Virus record (IMG/VR): IMGVR_UViG_3300034021_001142
Coordinates: 1 to 35,068 of that record
DNA from: a virus
Reading direction: 5' to 3' (one strand)
Length of the DNA stretch: 35,068 nucleotides
A program made the translations under genes and the position numbers. This document shows, one piece after another, positions 1,336 through 35,068 of this stretch. The notes below the pieces were generated by a model. The model saw nothing but the letters and a program-made list of their open reading frames with translations, was not told the origin of the DNA and searched no databases. Position 1 is the first letter of the stretch. Every line of letters begins with the position of its first letter.

Positions 1336-1359
1336 ATTGTCTCTCCAGATTTTTAATTC

Positions 1360-6900: not shown

Positions 6901-6929
6901 TTGACATTTCTATTATTTCCTGATAATAT
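6901..6929 (+). promoter_or_regulatory. Coat-gene promoter
   Basis: TTGACA (6901-6906), 17-base spacer, TAATAT (6924-6929) with an extended TG one base upstream. It begins four bases after the groES stop and points to the coat gene. Predicted start (~6936) lies in the left arm of the terminator hairpin. Confidence 0.7.
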
Positions 6930-6930
6930 A

Positions 6931-6963
6931 CCCCTACCTGCCTTAATTGGTAGGGGCTTTTGT
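6931..6963 (+). terminator. Rho-independent terminator before coat gene
   Basis: Arms CCCCTACC (6931-6938) and GGTAGGGG (6949-6956) give an 8-bp stem with a 10-base loop, followed by CTTTTGTT. It would stop transcripts coming from the packaging genes, while the promoter at 6901 starts new ones beyond it. Confidence 0.75.
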
Positions 6964-20382: not shown

Positions 20383-20769
20383 TTATAAAATCAAAAGCTT
20401 AAGATAGTTTTTCGTATCTTCATATTCAATAAACAAATCATCACTTCTTACTGAAAAATATTTCATTAAAACATCTAAGTCATCGCACCAAAAAACACAT
20501 TGACCGCCAAATGAGTTTATTTTTCTCATGACCTCGAATTGGTTTTTTGTAGGCTTGTTTCCTTTAACTTTTAACTCTATCCAATAAGTGACGCTGGGAA
20601 AGCCTATAATACACAAATCAGGAACGCCAGCTAAAACGCCTTGACGCTTTAAATTAACAGCTTCTAGCAGATTTCTGCTTCCGCCGTTTGCATTTGCAAA
20701 TATAAGCTTATCTTTGAATTTAACGCGAAACCATTCAACGAAAGCGGATTGCAGTTGGGATTCTTTCAT
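20383..20769 (-). CDS. VRR-NUC nuclease
   Basis: 128 residues with the VRR-NUC fold motifs: Glu3 in a leading helix, NGGSR (28-32), GVPDL (48-52), IELKVKG (64-70) and Gln77. This family includes Holliday-junction-type and repair nucleases, and stand-alone phage copies are common among replication genes. The catalytic D/E-x-K core looks intact. Its ATG overlaps the preceding stop (ATGA). It is the last gene of the minus-strand block. Confidence 0.88.
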   Translation of the reverse strand: MKESQLQSAFVEWFRVKFKDKLIFANANGGSRNLLEAVNLKRQGVLAGVPDLCIIGFPSVTYWIELKVKGNKPTKNQFEVMRKINSFGGQCVFWCDDLDVLMKYFSVRSDDLFIEYEDTKNYLKLLIL

Positions 20770-20987
20770 GGCTTCCCAATAAATACATTGTTAAACTTTT
20801 TTCCGCATTTAGAACAGAAGCATTTTACAAAGTCTTTTATATTATTGGAGTTTTTTTTAAGTTTTGCTTGAAATTCAACGGAAGAGTCCCCGTCGTAAGA
20901 ATAAACAAAAACGCCGTCAATCAAAACCTGTGGGTCATGTATCCCAAGGCAACATTTAATAGGCTTTTTCTTGAAAAAGTTAAACAT
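20766..20987 (-). CDS. CxGxHD zinc-ribbon small protein (paralogue A)
   Basis: 73 residues with KCCLGIHD near the N-terminus and CFCSKCGKKF near the C-terminus, giving a likely Cys/His zinc site. The same layout appears in the proteins at 21352 and 21561, and it resembles the DUF1660 type of small phage proteins. Function unknown. Coupled to neighbours on both sides. Confidence 0.65.
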   Translation of the reverse strand: MFNFFKKKPIKCCLGIHDPQVLIDGVFVYSYDGDSSVEFQAKLKKNSNNIKDFVKCFCSKCGKKFNNVFIGKP

Positions 20988-21133: not shown

Positions 21134-21253
21134 GATTCAATAAAAACAATGATTAAGTTGCCATGCTAGCATGCTGACGCTGATTATGCCGTGACTGTGA
21201 AGCCACAGTAAAAACCTAAATTCAAATGGATGGCAAATCATTTCTACCTCAAA

Positions 21254-21327
21254 TTAAAAACCCCATCAATCTTTTTAGTTATCGACGGGGTCAGGTGGTG
21301 TTTTCCCTCTGGAGAGAGATTGAAAAC
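21254..21327 (-). ncRNA. Candidate phage small RNA with anti-Shine-Dalgarno loop
   Basis: A consensus promoter (21334-21362) predicts a start at ~21327, and an intrinsic terminator ends near 21254, giving ~74 nt with no ORF. The 5' end folds as a hairpin, GUUUUC/GAAAAC (21322-21327 with 21300-21305), whose 16-base loop contains UCUCUCUCCAG. This is complementary to CUGGAGAGA, the ribosome-site block of the genes starting at 1335, 23488 (eight bases) and 27720. The layout matches bacterial SD-pairing sRNAs. It could instead be an attenuated leader of the 48-residue gene. Seen: promoter, hairpins, complementarity; inferred: regulation. Confidence 0.6.
21256..21290 (-). terminator. Rho-independent terminator of the small RNA
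   Basis: On the minus strand CCCCGTC (21284-21290) pairs with GATGGGG (21261-21267), with one G-U pair, and is followed by TTTTT. It lies ~60 bases behind the consensus promoter at 21334. Confidence 0.8.
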
Positions 21328-21333
21328 CAGTTA

Positions 21334-21362
21334 ATATTATCATATTTTCAATTATTTGTCAA
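21334..21362 (-). promoter_or_regulatory. Consensus promoter of the small RNA
   Basis: TTGACA (21357-21362), 17-base spacer, TAATAT (21334-21339) with extended TG. It overlaps the last codons of the gene ending at 21352. Confidence 0.8.
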
Positions 21363-21564
21363 TAAAACATCCTTCTATAAGTGCATAACCAAGTTTTTTT
21401 AAAGTATTTTTAACGTCCGTAGGCGCGCCTGGTATTTCTTCCTCATATTTCCTATAGCAATTCCGGCAATATAGACTCAAAATAAGTCTATTGTGTTTTT
21501 TTGAAGACGGAACTACGCAATACACAAAATTATCATGCAATCCAAAAAGACATTTAAAACTCAC
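21352..21564 (-). CDS. CxGxHD zinc-ribbon small protein (paralogue B)
   Basis: 70 residues with KCLFGLHD and YCRNCYRKYE. GTG start overlapping the preceding TGA (GTGA), with GGGGTGAG upstream. Same layout as the proteins at 20766 and 21561, so likely an ancient local duplication. The last codons carry the -35 box of the small-RNA promoter. Function unknown. Confidence 0.65.
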   Translation of the reverse strand: MSFKCLFGLHDNFVYCVVPSSKKHNRLILSLYCRNCYRKYEEEIPGAPTDVKNTLKKLGYALIEGCFIDK

Positions 21565-21779
21565 AACTCACCCCATATTTTAATGAAATCTTCTTTTGTT
21601 TCCAGTTTTTTATCAACAAAAGTTATCTTATATTTTTTGCAGTTTTTGCATTTCAGCCATACTTTTGCAGGGTCTTTATAGAATGCGTATAAGAAAGGAT
21701 CTAAACCATCTAAATTTGGCGAAGGATCGTGAACCGCATACCGCCAATCATGGCCTTTGAATAAGCATTTAAGATTCAT
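21561..21779 (-). CDS. CxGHDW zinc-ribbon small protein (paralogue C)
   Basis: 72 residues starting MNLKCLFKGHDWRY, with KCKNCKKYK as the second knuckle. The ATG at 21779 is chosen over the GTG three codons earlier because AGGTGGGG precedes it. CLFKGHDW ... CKNC resembles the DUF1660 prophage family. Overlaps the preceding stop by four bases. Confidence 0.68.
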   Translation of the reverse strand: MNLKCLFKGHDWRYAVHDPSPNLDGLDPFLYAFYKDPAKVWLKCKNCKKYKITFVDKKLETKEDFIKIWGEL

Positions 21780-21985
21780 CGTCCCCACCTTTTGTTAAAG
21801 TCTATTCTATGGGAATGCCATTTTTTTACAGTTTCTATAGACAGCTCTTTTTTGTTAATAGATTTTTTTAATAGATTTATATGCTCATTGTAAGAAAGGT
21901 TTAACGGATTTATCGATTTATTCGACCTTGATTTCTGAACAAGCGCGCAGAATTTCCTTAATATTTTTTGGCTTTTTCCGCTCAT
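21776..21985 (-). CDS. 69-residue basic helical protein, unknown
   Basis: Starts MSGKSQKILRKFCALVQKSR and is rich in Lys, Arg, Asn and Ser with helix pattern throughout. It is coupled by ATGA to both neighbours. A nucleic-acid-binding role would fit the charge, but no domain is recognised. Confidence 0.55.
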   Translation of the reverse strand: MSGKSQKILRKFCALVQKSRSNKSINPLNLSYNEHINLLKKSINKKELSIETVKKWHSHRIDFNKRWGR

Positions 21986-22985: not shown

Positions 22986-23488
22986 ACTTCCCCCTCTGGT
23001 ATTTCTCGGATGAATGACACAAAAAACATATCTTTTATTAAAAATAGTGATTGATTCGCATCTGCTTCATCTACTCGCCTTAAAATTCCTGTCTTCCATC
23101 CGTCACTCCAATATTCAACTTTCTTGTCAATCAAATGCCTAGCCTCATTCGCGTCAGCGTCGGTGTAGATGCGCCCACTACTCCATTTTTTATACATGCA
23201 TTTAATACAATGCTTTGGTTCTCGAGCGCCAATAGCTTCTTCGCAATTGTCACAGTAAGTCGCAGAATTAGCAGCTCTATCAACCGCCGCATTAAACTCT
23301 TCGGCGAGTTTGTCTGCGCAATGATAATTGCATATTTCACCTTCGCATGAACATTCAATCAAAGCTAAACCAAGGTGTAGAATATAAGCCCTGAACCGAT
23401 TTGGACGCTCATTAGTCCCTTTAATGCATATGCTCATACCATCTTTATTAACCCAAACCCCATCACGAATCTTGATAAATTTTTCCAT
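22982..23488 (-). CDS. 168-residue Cys-rich protein
   Basis: Contains two cysteine clusters: CSCEGEICNYHCADKL (about 47-62) and CDNCEEAIG ... HCIKC (about 79-98), the latter a likely zinc ribbon. The C-terminus contains a DUF-like KKVEYWSDGWKTGILRRVDE stretch. The ATG follows CTGGAGAGCTATA, one of the three sites complementary to the candidate small RNA. No specific function recognised. Confidence 0.62.
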   Translation of the reverse strand: MEKFIKIRDGVWVNKDGMSICIKGTNERPNRFRAYILHLGLALIECSCEGEICNYHCADKLAEEFNAAVDRAANSATYCDNCEEAIGAREPKHCIKCMYKKWSSGRIYTDADANEARHLIDKKVEYWSDGWKTGILRRVDEADANQSLFLIKDMFFVSFIREIPEGEV

Positions 23489-23697
23489 TATAGCTCTCCA
23501 GTATATTTTGACAAAAGGCTATTGTAAATAACTTGCTTTCTTCTAACATTTTCTTGAGAAAGTTTATATTGAACATCCATTTCAACTCTTTCTTCGTGAG
23601 TTCTTTCTGCCGTATTAAGCATTCCAAGGTATTGATGATTTTGTTCAGCATCATAAAGCGCCTTAGCCGATTCTACAAGTTCATCTTTTGTTGTCAT
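23488..23697 (-). CDS. 69-residue helical protein, unknown
   Basis: Starts MTTKDELVESAKALYDAEQN and is charged helix throughout; TAATG overlap with the next gene, AGGA upstream. It is the first ORF after the tRNA. No family recognised. The 110 bases upstream to the tRNA hold a weak GCAA/TTGC hairpin with a T-run and nothing else visible. Confidence 0.55.
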   Translation of the reverse strand: MTTKDELVESAKALYDAEQNHQYLGMLNTAERTHEERVEMDVQYKLSQENVRRKQVIYNSLLSKYTGEL

Positions 23698-27024: not shown

Positions 27025-27720
27025 TTAGAAATTGTACTGTAGACCGATTGTTGTTGATAGTATAGGCATTATTTCTACATTTGATGAAAAGCTAGAGAAT
27101 CCAAACTCATCTGGAGTATTGCCAATTATATAACTTACATCAGCTATAACAGATATATTTCTGTTTAACAAAAATCCTGCGCTTAACCCAAAATCAGGGC
27201 GCATATTTTGAGTGGAAGAAACAGAAGAAAAGTATTTCCCGTCATCTTTAGAGCCATTATTTAAAATATACCCAGTTTCTATACGCTGATATATCTTTGC
27301 AAAACCATAGTTAAATTGAAAAAAATAACGGTTTTGGATATAATATCTATTAAAAAACAAAAACTCAATATCGCTAGAAGAATAGCTTACATTGGATGCG
27401 CCTCCATTAAAAACATAATTTGTCTTAATTGAAGGATTGTATTTTATTTCCGCACCCATTTTAAGATAGGATGGAATTTGATCGGAACCCCACATAATAC
27501 CAATAGACATTTTGTTTGAATACCCTTCGTGAAATGAAGTATTAGGGTTTTGACAGTTTATATATAAACATGACCCGCTAAAAGATTCTGAATTAACGGA
27601 ATTTTGAAGGGTATTTACATAACCAAAATCCCATCCAGCAAAATAATTAACTTGTTGATTTTCAGCAAAACAAGAACTTGCCGTTAAAATTGCAATAGCT
27701 GCAATAATTGTTTTTTTCAT
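27025..27720 (-). CDS. Outer-membrane beta-barrel protein
   Basis: 231 residues from the ATG at 27720, behind CTGGAGAGAAA. The signal peptide MKKTIIAAIAILTASSCFA is followed by alternating strands with aromatic girdles (NRYYIQNRYFFQFNYGFAK) and a C-terminal GLQYNF, the terminal Phe expected for BAM insertion. Eight to ten strands are likely, as in OmpA/Opa-type porins. A cellular surface protein in a phage early block suggests conversion or receptor masking. Its ribosome site is complementary to the candidate small RNA. Confidence 0.8.
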   Translation of the reverse strand: MKKTIIAAIAILTASSCFAENQQVNYFAGWDFGYVNTLQNSVNSESFSGSCLYINCQNPNTSFHEGYSNKMSIGIMWGSDQIPSYLKMGAEIKYNPSIKTNYVFNGGASNVSYSSSDIEFLFFNRYYIQNRYFFQFNYGFAKIYQRIETGYILNNGSKDDGKYFSSVSSTQNMRPDFGLSAGFLLNRNISVIADVSYIIGNTPDEFGFSSFSSNVEIMPILSTTIGLQYNF

Positions 27721-27748
27721 TTTCTCTCCAGTTTTAGTTAATCGCACG

Positions 27749-29620: not shown

Positions 29621-29646
29621 AATTTACCACCTTTTTAACTTAACGA

Positions 29647-30568: not shown

Positions 30569-31225
30569 TCACACCTCAATGCTTTTTTCAGTAAAAATTT
30601 CTATCAGTCTGTCTAACTGAGCAGCCAAAGCAGCCCTAGCAGCATCAGCAGCAGCCAAAGCAGCCCAAGCAGCATCAGCAGCAGCACCAGCATCAGCAGC
30701 AGCCCTAGCAGCATCAGCAGCAGCCCAAGCAGCATCAGCAGCAGCCAAAGCAGCCCTAGCAGCATCAGCAGCAGCCAAAGCAGCCCTAGCAGCAGCCAAA
30801 GCAGCCCTAGCAGCATCAGCAGCAGCCCAAGCAGCATCAGCAGCAGCCAAAGCAGCCCTAGCAGCATCAGCAGCAGCCAAAGCAGCCCAAGCAGCATCAG
30901 CAGCATCAGCACCAGAATCCAATTCTTCTTGAGTGGCGTTACCGTTTGCAAACGCTTCAGCGACATCAAGAGCTTTAATACTGCGATCATCCGTCATTAA
31001 GTGCTGAACTTTTCTAGCAGACCAAACAGCAAACAATCTTAACTCTTTAACCGTTAAAAATTCTTTTCTTAGCAATACCCAATGAATATCATTTTTTGAT
31101 TTTACTTTCTCGCGATATTCTTTGATAAAATTAACAACGCTATCCTCGTAGTCTTCTTTCATTCCAATTTCAATCGGATCGTAACAAGGATTAAGTTCTT
31201 TTATTTGCTGATATGATATTTTCAA
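30569..31225 (-). CDS. Ala-rich repeat protein, possibly immunity-type helical
   Basis: 218 residues from a TTG at 31225 placed after GAGGTG. The N-terminal ~105 residues form an ordinary domain (WVLLRKEFLTVKELRLFAVW ... SIKALDVAEAFANGNATQEE). Residues ~105-200 are built of Ala-rich repeats such as ADAARAALAA and ADAAWAA, encoded by near-identical GC-rich DNA unlike its neighbours. The ending is QLDRLIEIFTEKSIEV. Similar N-terminal/Ala-repeat proteins are widespread in bacteria and phages; role unknown. Repeat number is likely to vary. Confidence 0.65.
   Translation of the reverse strand: MKISYQQIKELNPCYDPIEIGMKEDYEDSVVNFIKEYREKVKSKNDIHWVLLRKEFLTVKELRLFAVWSARKVQHLMTDDRSIKALDVAEAFANGNATQEELDSGADAADAAWAALAAADAARAALAAADAAWAAADAARAALAAARAALAAADAARAALAAADAAWAAADAARAAADAGAAADAAWAALAAADAARAALAAQLDRLIEIFTEKSIEV
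30619..30911. repeat. Ala-coding repeat block (GCAGC/AGCAGC modules)
   Basis: Reiterated modules such as CAGCATCAGCAGCAGCC and AAAGCAGCCCTAGCAGC, locally far richer in G+C than the surrounding DNA. It encodes the Ala-rich helix of the gene on the minus strand and would be prone to slippage. Confidence 0.9.
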
Positions 31226-31226
31226 T

Positions 31227-31610
31227 TTACACCTCAATAAGTTTGTTTTCGATTAGGCTTATTATCGCCATAGCAAGGGAATTAGCGCTGGTTTCATTTA
31301 ACAAATCCATTTCATTAAGTATCTTTTCAAAATCGCGCTCATATTCTTCTCCATCAAAATTTAATGTAGATTTACTTTGAAATAAAATTTCATTGCATTC
31401 CGCCATTGTGAATGCCGAGTAATATTCTAAACGCCCTTTAATCTGATTAAAATCTGGTCTACCAAAAACCAAATTTATATCAAATTCAGTTTCATCATTT
31501 ATTTCTTGGCATTCAATTATCCAATAAAACAAAGACTCTTGCGGCGCACCTAATTCTTTAAGCCGCTTTGATAGTTCTAGCGAAGTTACTTGTTGTTCTA
31601 GTGGAATCAT
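31227..31610 (-). CDS. Conserved phage protein (SLELSKRLKELG type)
   Basis: 127 residues. QVTSLELSKRLKELGAPQES followed by LFYWI is a start I recognise from many phage accessory proteins of unknown function. It ends IENKLIEV with the stop TAA; GAGGTG in these codons is the ribosome site of the next gene. The ATG at 31610 follows AGGAAAATAAATC. Confidence 0.7.
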   Translation of the reverse strand: MIPLEQQVTSLELSKRLKELGAPQESLFYWIIECQEINDETEFDINLVFGRPDFNQIKGRLEYYSAFTMAECNEILFQSKSTLNFDGEEYERDFEKILNEMDLLNETSANSLAMAIISLIENKLIEV

Positions 31611-34499: not shown

Positions 34500-35068
34500 A
34501 ATCAAGCCCTCCTGTTGACGGTTTATCGAAGATACTCAAGTCTATTCCACTTGATTTTAAAGACCTTATTACATGTAATTCTTTTTGAACGGAAAAATCA
34601 TCCTTCCATCTTTCCCCATTTAACCACCCCTGAGCCATCTTAAAGTATTTCCAATCTTGGCCGCTTTCTTTAAATCCTAAAATAAAGCGTTTTAAACCCT
34701 CTATTATCTCATCCCCGCTATAACCCCTCTCTATGGCCTTAGAAAATGCAACCAAGGCCTCTTTCTTGCCGTTTTTGCGCGGGAAAAAACCCCAGAACTC
34801 ATTAAACTTTTCAAGAATTTCATTTTTACCGACTTTTTCAATTTTTGTAGATATATCAGAACGCGCGCGCGGGGATATATTATTACATATGTTTCCTGGT
34901 AAGTTAATACTTACTGATAGTTTTTTAGTAGTATTAATTTCTTTTTCTTTTGGTTCTTTTCTTTTTCTTTTGCTATCATTGCTATCATTGCTATCATTGC
35001 TATCATTGCTATCATTGCTATCATTGCTATCATTGCTATCATTGCTATCATTGCTATCATTGCTATCA
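34492..35068 (-). CDS. Replication initiator, C-terminal part (continues at 1-411)
   Basis: In frame with 1-411 once the 100-base overlap is removed. After the Asp-Ser-Asn repeats come a basic Lys/Arg/Glu stretch (KRKRKEPKEKEINTTKK) and a C-terminal domain: EILEKFNEFWGFFPRKNGKK, EALVAFSKAIERGYSGDEII, QGWLNGERWKDDF. The FW-x-x-FPRK-x-GKK ... WLNGERW pattern is the conserved C-terminal module of phage replication initiators and is thought to recruit the helicase loader. No DNA polymerase gene is seen, so replication should rely on host enzymes. Confidence 0.75.
   Translation of the reverse strand, partial: DSNDSNDSNDSNDSNDSNDSNDSNDSNDSNDSKRKRKEPKEKEINTTKKLSVSINLPGNICNNISPRARSDISTKIEKVGKNEILEKFNEFWGFFPRKNGKKEALVAFSKAIERGYSGDEIIEGLKRFILGFKESGQDWKYFKMAQGWLNGERWKDDFSVQKELHVIRSLKSSGIDLSIFDKPSTGGLDFD
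34970..35068. repeat. 9-bp tandem array, right-hand copy (window end)
   Basis: Eleven copies of TTGCTATCA ending at the last base. From 34969 on, the sequence equals bases 1-100, so this is the same locus as the left-hand array, seen twice. Confidence 0.95.

Follow-up and report, generated by a model that had tools for sequence, protein, structure and literature searches.

A candidate phage small RNA with a loop complementary to Shine-Dalgarno sites of early genes

What does a phage gain from a consensus promoter that is followed almost at once by a hairpin and a transcription terminator, with no room for a protein? The locus that raises this question (21254-21327) lies in a virus record of 35,068 bases, the whole of which was analysed (the window). 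A 100-nt direct repeat, belonging to a 9-bp array, is found at both ends of the record, which is therefore probably a complete circular assembly. The repeated unit, TTGCTATCA, is arrayed at 1-127 (14 copies) and 34970-35068 (11 copies), with the contig ending inside the array, and could be either iterons or coding sequence for a tripeptide repeat. By its terminase and portal proteins the phage falls near BcepC6B-type podoviruses, with terminase identity of about 27-33%. Structural genes occupy the plus strand at about 1.7-20.2 kb; early genes occupy the minus strand, running leftwards from 35 kb to 20.4 kb and again from 1.3 kb to the end. Among the latter, the gene at 30569-31237 (minus strand) contains extended GCAGCN repeats, spaced at steps of 9 and 12 bp, and apparently encodes an alanine-rich repetitive protein. 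The candidate RNA gene itself flanks, on the 3' side, the early operon begun at promoter P3. Three small minus-strand proteins on either side of it (20766-20987, 21352-21564 and 21561-21788) have similar starts (KCLFG.HD and the like) and look like paralogues.

The promoter of the locus, P4, has its -35 element TTGACA at 21362-21357, the extending TG at 21342-21341 and the -10 element TAATAT at 21339-21334, and the +1 is a G at 21327, 7 nt past the -10 element. Exact sites of the form TTGACA-17-(TATAAT or TAATAT) number five across the genome, where dinucleotide shuffles give 0.02 on average. P1, P2 and P3, which belong to the same class, each stand at the head of an early operon, and a hairpin near +1 is present in the P1 and P2 transcripts and absent from that of P3. 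Among the minus-strand sites of the class, P4 is the only one with a terminator immediately after the promoter. This terminator lies wholly downstream of the P4 +1. At the fifth site, on the plus strand, promoter and terminator (CCCCTACC..GGTAGGGG) overlap such that the +1 falls inside the 5' arm of the terminator; transcripts arriving from upstream would thus stop there, and the promoter's own transcripts would escape. Coordinates of these and other features are collected in Table 1.

Table 1. Features of the candidate RNA locus, related promoters and candidate target sites.
Feature	Position	Strand	Remarks
Predicted small RNA, ~72-74 nt, no ORF	21254..21327	-	+1 to T tract; MFE -24.8 kcal/mol
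Promoter P4: TTGACA, 17-nt spacer, TG-A-TAATAT extended -10	21334..21362	-	Exact motif and spacing
5' hairpin, 6-bp stem GUUUUC/GAAAAC, 16-nt loop	21300..21327	-	-8.4 kcal/mol; loop partly paired internally (UCU/AGA)
Possible antisense stretch UCUCUCCAGA within loop	21308..21317	-	Exact complement of CTGGAGAG(A) sites
Linker ACCACCU, single-stranded; second possible anti-Shine-Dalgarno stretch	21293..21299	-	7-bp complement of 29620 ribosome site
Intrinsic terminator: 10-bp stem, 10-nt loop, TTTTT	21256..21290	-	-12.9 kcal/mol
Possible 34-residue ORF past terminator	21241	-	
48-residue gene past terminator	21133	-	
73-residue gene past terminator	20987	-	
128-residue VRR-NUC-like nuclease gene past terminator	20769	-	
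Promoter P1	1413	-	Precedes gene 1335
Promoter P2	32683	-	Precedes gene 32590
Promoter P3	29679	-	Precedes gene 29620
Fifth promoter, TTGACA-17-TAATAT, extended TG	6901-6956	+	Overlaps intrinsic terminator; before 523-residue gene 7088
Candidate site TCTGGAGAGA, 4 nt before ATG 1335	1340..1349	-	10 bp; hybrid -16.2, net -9.4 kcal/mol
Candidate site CTGGAGAGA, 2 nt before ATG 27720	27723..27731	-	9 bp, hybrid -14.3; best net -8.5 kcal/mol with 8 bp
Weaker candidate site CTGGAGAG before ATG 23488 (168-residue gene)	23494..23501	-	8 bp, structured site; net -4.0 kcal/mol, rank 9
Additional candidate site AGGTGGT before ATG 29620	29626..29632	-	Pairs with linker ACCACCU; net -9.5 kcal/mol

Downstream of P4, the stem of the 5' hairpin begins at +1 and encloses exactly 16 nt (AAUCUCUCUCCAGAGG). 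The stretch ACCACCUGA connects this hairpin to the terminator stem, whose arms CCCCGUCGAU/AUUGAUGGGG are followed by UUUUUAAUUU. One terminator scan skipped this structure owing to its loop length. No ORF is confined to the 74 bases from +1 to the terminator. A preliminary description of the locus had reported the extended consensus promoter, the hairpin with its 16-base loop and the terminator closing about 74 nt without an ORF, and all three elements were recovered as described. Because a strong promoter is followed by a transcription stop some 74 bases on, a short, terminated, non-coding RNA is probably made from this locus. Its U tract of five U is short and unlike a typical Hfq tail, and no Rfam family matched at the gathering score, with weak matches far below the cut-off. 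The loop, which the same description has pairing with ribosome sites, is not fully open in the MFE fold, being partly shut by the UCU/AGA pairing, but CUCUCC is mostly free. Unfolding the full 10-nt loop site costs 5.5 kcal/mol, whereas UCUCUCCA alone opens for 1.9 kcal/mol.

The sequence of the loop provides a clue regarding possible function. The word CTGGAGAG occurs four times on the two strands of the genome, one copy being antisense, within the RNA loop, and the other three lying at Shine-Dalgarno sites. All three sites outside the RNA are on the coding strand and less than 15 nt from a start codon, with the longer form CTGGAGAGA at 1348-1340 and 27731-27723 and CTGGAGAG at 23501-23494. 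Some 8-mer common to three ribosome sites arises in about half of Shine-Dalgarno-aligned permutations and is not rare per se; CTGGAGAG was found at at least three ribosome sites in none of 1000 Shine-Dalgarno-preserving permutations. Perfect complements of 8-9 bp had been proposed for the three sites, and exact matches are indeed present at each, but they are unequal, extending over 10 bp at 1335, 9 bp at 27720 and 8 bp at 23488, the last ranking ninth by energy. A different 8-mer, AAAGGTGG, is also enriched at ribosome sites (29620 and 28638, minus strand), and CCACCU of the linker complements six of its eight bases. As for the genes concerned, 1335 is the first gene of promoter P1 and encodes a 42-residue acidic protein (pI 4.1), while 29620, the first gene of P3, encodes an AAA ATPase (phrog_1366). 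Gene 27720 encodes an exported protein with a signal peptide; the basis for calling it an outer-membrane protein is this signal peptide plus a C-terminal aromatic residue, the predicted structure having a pLDDT of 28.

Interaction scores combining helix energies with the accessibility of both partners were used to rank 60 genes. Gene starts were assigned manually on the basis of ORFs and ribosome sites, so that the ranks depend on these start calls. A separate calculation with unrestricted duplexes was dropped, as it permitted unrealistic long loops. By net energy the ranking was led by 29620, 1335 and 27720 (values in Table 1), followed by 33870 at -7.0 kcal/mol. The energies therefore only partly bear out the earlier proposal of an RNA pairing to three genes: 1335 and 27720 do better than chance, 23488 is weak, and 29620 enters through the linker as a fourth candidate. 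When the 16 loop letters were shuffled, the observed best energy or top-three sum was reached in 1 of 1000 cases. Among 4380 genomic stretches of 36 nt, 3 matched the RNA on the top-three energy sum and 35 on the best single energy, placing its 5' part in the top 0.1% and top 1%, respectively. A C/U-rich loop facing G-rich Shine-Dalgarno sites obtains part of its complementarity for free. Overall, the match between loop and sites exceeds chance for an RNA chosen beforehand, but it is not overwhelming given that it was noticed post hoc with freedom to look anywhere.

These features suggest a mechanism in which the RNA, transcribed from its own strong host-type promoter and stopped at its own terminator, would act in trans. 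Its C/U-rich loop, possibly together with the linker, would base-pair to Shine-Dalgarno sites on early mRNAs of the phage, chiefly those of the first early gene (1335) and of the exported protein (27720). Pairing would block ribosome loading, and the accumulating RNA would damp early gene expression. The sequence itself displays the promoter, the terminator, the hairpin, the lack of an ORF and the exact complementarity, and from these we infer transcription of the RNA, its pairing in the cell, and both the repression and its timing. Trans-acting antisense repression appears the most likely function, with a confidence somewhat short of even.

Other accounts of the same elements have to be weighed. 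P4 may instead drive the genes that follow, with the terminator passing only a fraction of transcripts and the short RNA arising as a by-product. Such an attenuated leader, already raised as the alternative in the preliminary description, would match the operon-heading positions of P1, P2 and P3, and the downstream genes are on the same strand and less than 200 nt away. Read-through expression is conceivable, since the 34-residue ORF, preceded by a GAGGT ribosome site, starts directly past the terminator, though this ORF has no family evidence. Moreover, step-by-step and constrained folds revealed no antiterminator helix competing with the terminator, the RNA contains neither a mutually exclusive helix nor an ORF between +1 and the terminator, and a leader leaves the complementarity of the loop unexplained. 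We retain the leader as the main rival, though a somewhat unlikely one, noting that the two readings are compatible, as a leaky terminator would yield both an sRNA and a leader. Two palindromes, ACTGTGgcttCACAGT and CATGCTAGCATG, lie at 21134-21253 (minus strand) between the terminator and gene 21133 and are possibly operators.

A plainer view is that the terminator serves the upstream P3 operon, accompanied by a 5'-stabilising hairpin and an inconsequential promoter, and that the complementarity is a C/U-rich coincidence without regulatory role. Consistent with this, the 70-residue ORF at 21564-21352 (minus strand) ends within the P4 spacer (stop at 21354-21352), and no other strong terminator intervenes. 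The hairpins near +1 in the P1 and P2 leaders imply that such structures may be a general habit, and other genomic stretches, though few, score as well as the RNA. Nevertheless, a near-perfect extended promoter placed right before an operon terminator would otherwise be pointless, and the rarity of equal pairing among loop shuffles also argues against coincidence, so that we regard this view as improbable. Finally, the RNA might act mainly on host mRNAs or sponge a host RNA, as do several known phage sRNAs (PreS on dnaN, AgvB on GcvB; PMC12197685). The exact sites in the phage's own genome offer a simpler account, and we consider this idea very improbable.

Searches for relatives covered phage DNA and scans with the exported protein, the terminase and the AAA ATPase, and no phage close enough for covariation analysis was found in the collections. 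Degenerate terminase motifs and the RNA sequence itself likewise retrieved no close relative from them. The best identity in the terminase alignment scan was 33% among the matches listed, and tblastn in phages gave no match for the 27720 or 23488 proteins. The promoter-plus-loop pattern returned 45 matches, none in a relative of the phage by tblastn, and just one locus that recurred had a terminator. This phage belongs to a poorly sampled podovirus group.

Returning to antisense repression, a more ambitious form holds that the RNA is dedicated to several targets. In this reading the phage's own early operons (1335, 27720, 29620 and perhaps 23488) carry recurring Shine-Dalgarno sequences that the loop and linker match, and shared ribosome sites would then constitute a post-transcriptional regulon within one phage genome. 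We regard this as rather doubtful. If true, several early genes would be coordinated through a shared ribosome-site sequence, giving a small regulon of this kind in a phage group of which few members have been sampled; the multi-target reading leads to a simple, testable prediction on early gene timing.

The phage antisense RNAs considered for comparison mostly regulate one phage locus or act on host genes. The c4 RNA of phages P1 and P7 blocks translation through loops complementary to the ribosome-binding region of a phage mRNA (PMC12197685), and the candidate described here is similarly a small phage RNA whose loop complements ribosome-binding regions, here as candidate sites. In contrast, c4 governs immunity and the gene for the antirepressor, ant, whereas the candidate targets here are several separate genes; neither a repressor nor an antirepressor was recognised in the phage proteins scanned. 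The sar RNA of phage P22, at 68/69 nt, keeps translation of a phage gene from initiating (PMC12197685) and thus resembles our RNA in its shortness and in the proposed block, but for sar a single target mRNA, ant, is described, while the candidate sites here are spread over several operons at 2 to 15 kb from the RNA gene. LhrC of Listeria can pair with Shine-Dalgarno sequences through a C/U-rich loop as well as through a single-stranded linker (PMC4132741), an arrangement that the RNA here would share with LhrC and other UCCC-motif sRNAs (RsaE, RNAIII). LhrC-type sRNAs, however, are bacterial and multicopy and carry UCCC, whereas the loop here has UCUCUCC and no Rfam match. PreS (~88 nt) and VpdS (~50 nt) are phage-encoded trans-acting sRNAs (PMC12197685), and our candidate is likewise phage-encoded, short and proposed to act in trans; these two come from temperate phages and depend on Hfq, and the U tail of the candidate is short. 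If real, the RNA would add to the known set of antisense RNAs with which phages target ribosome sites.
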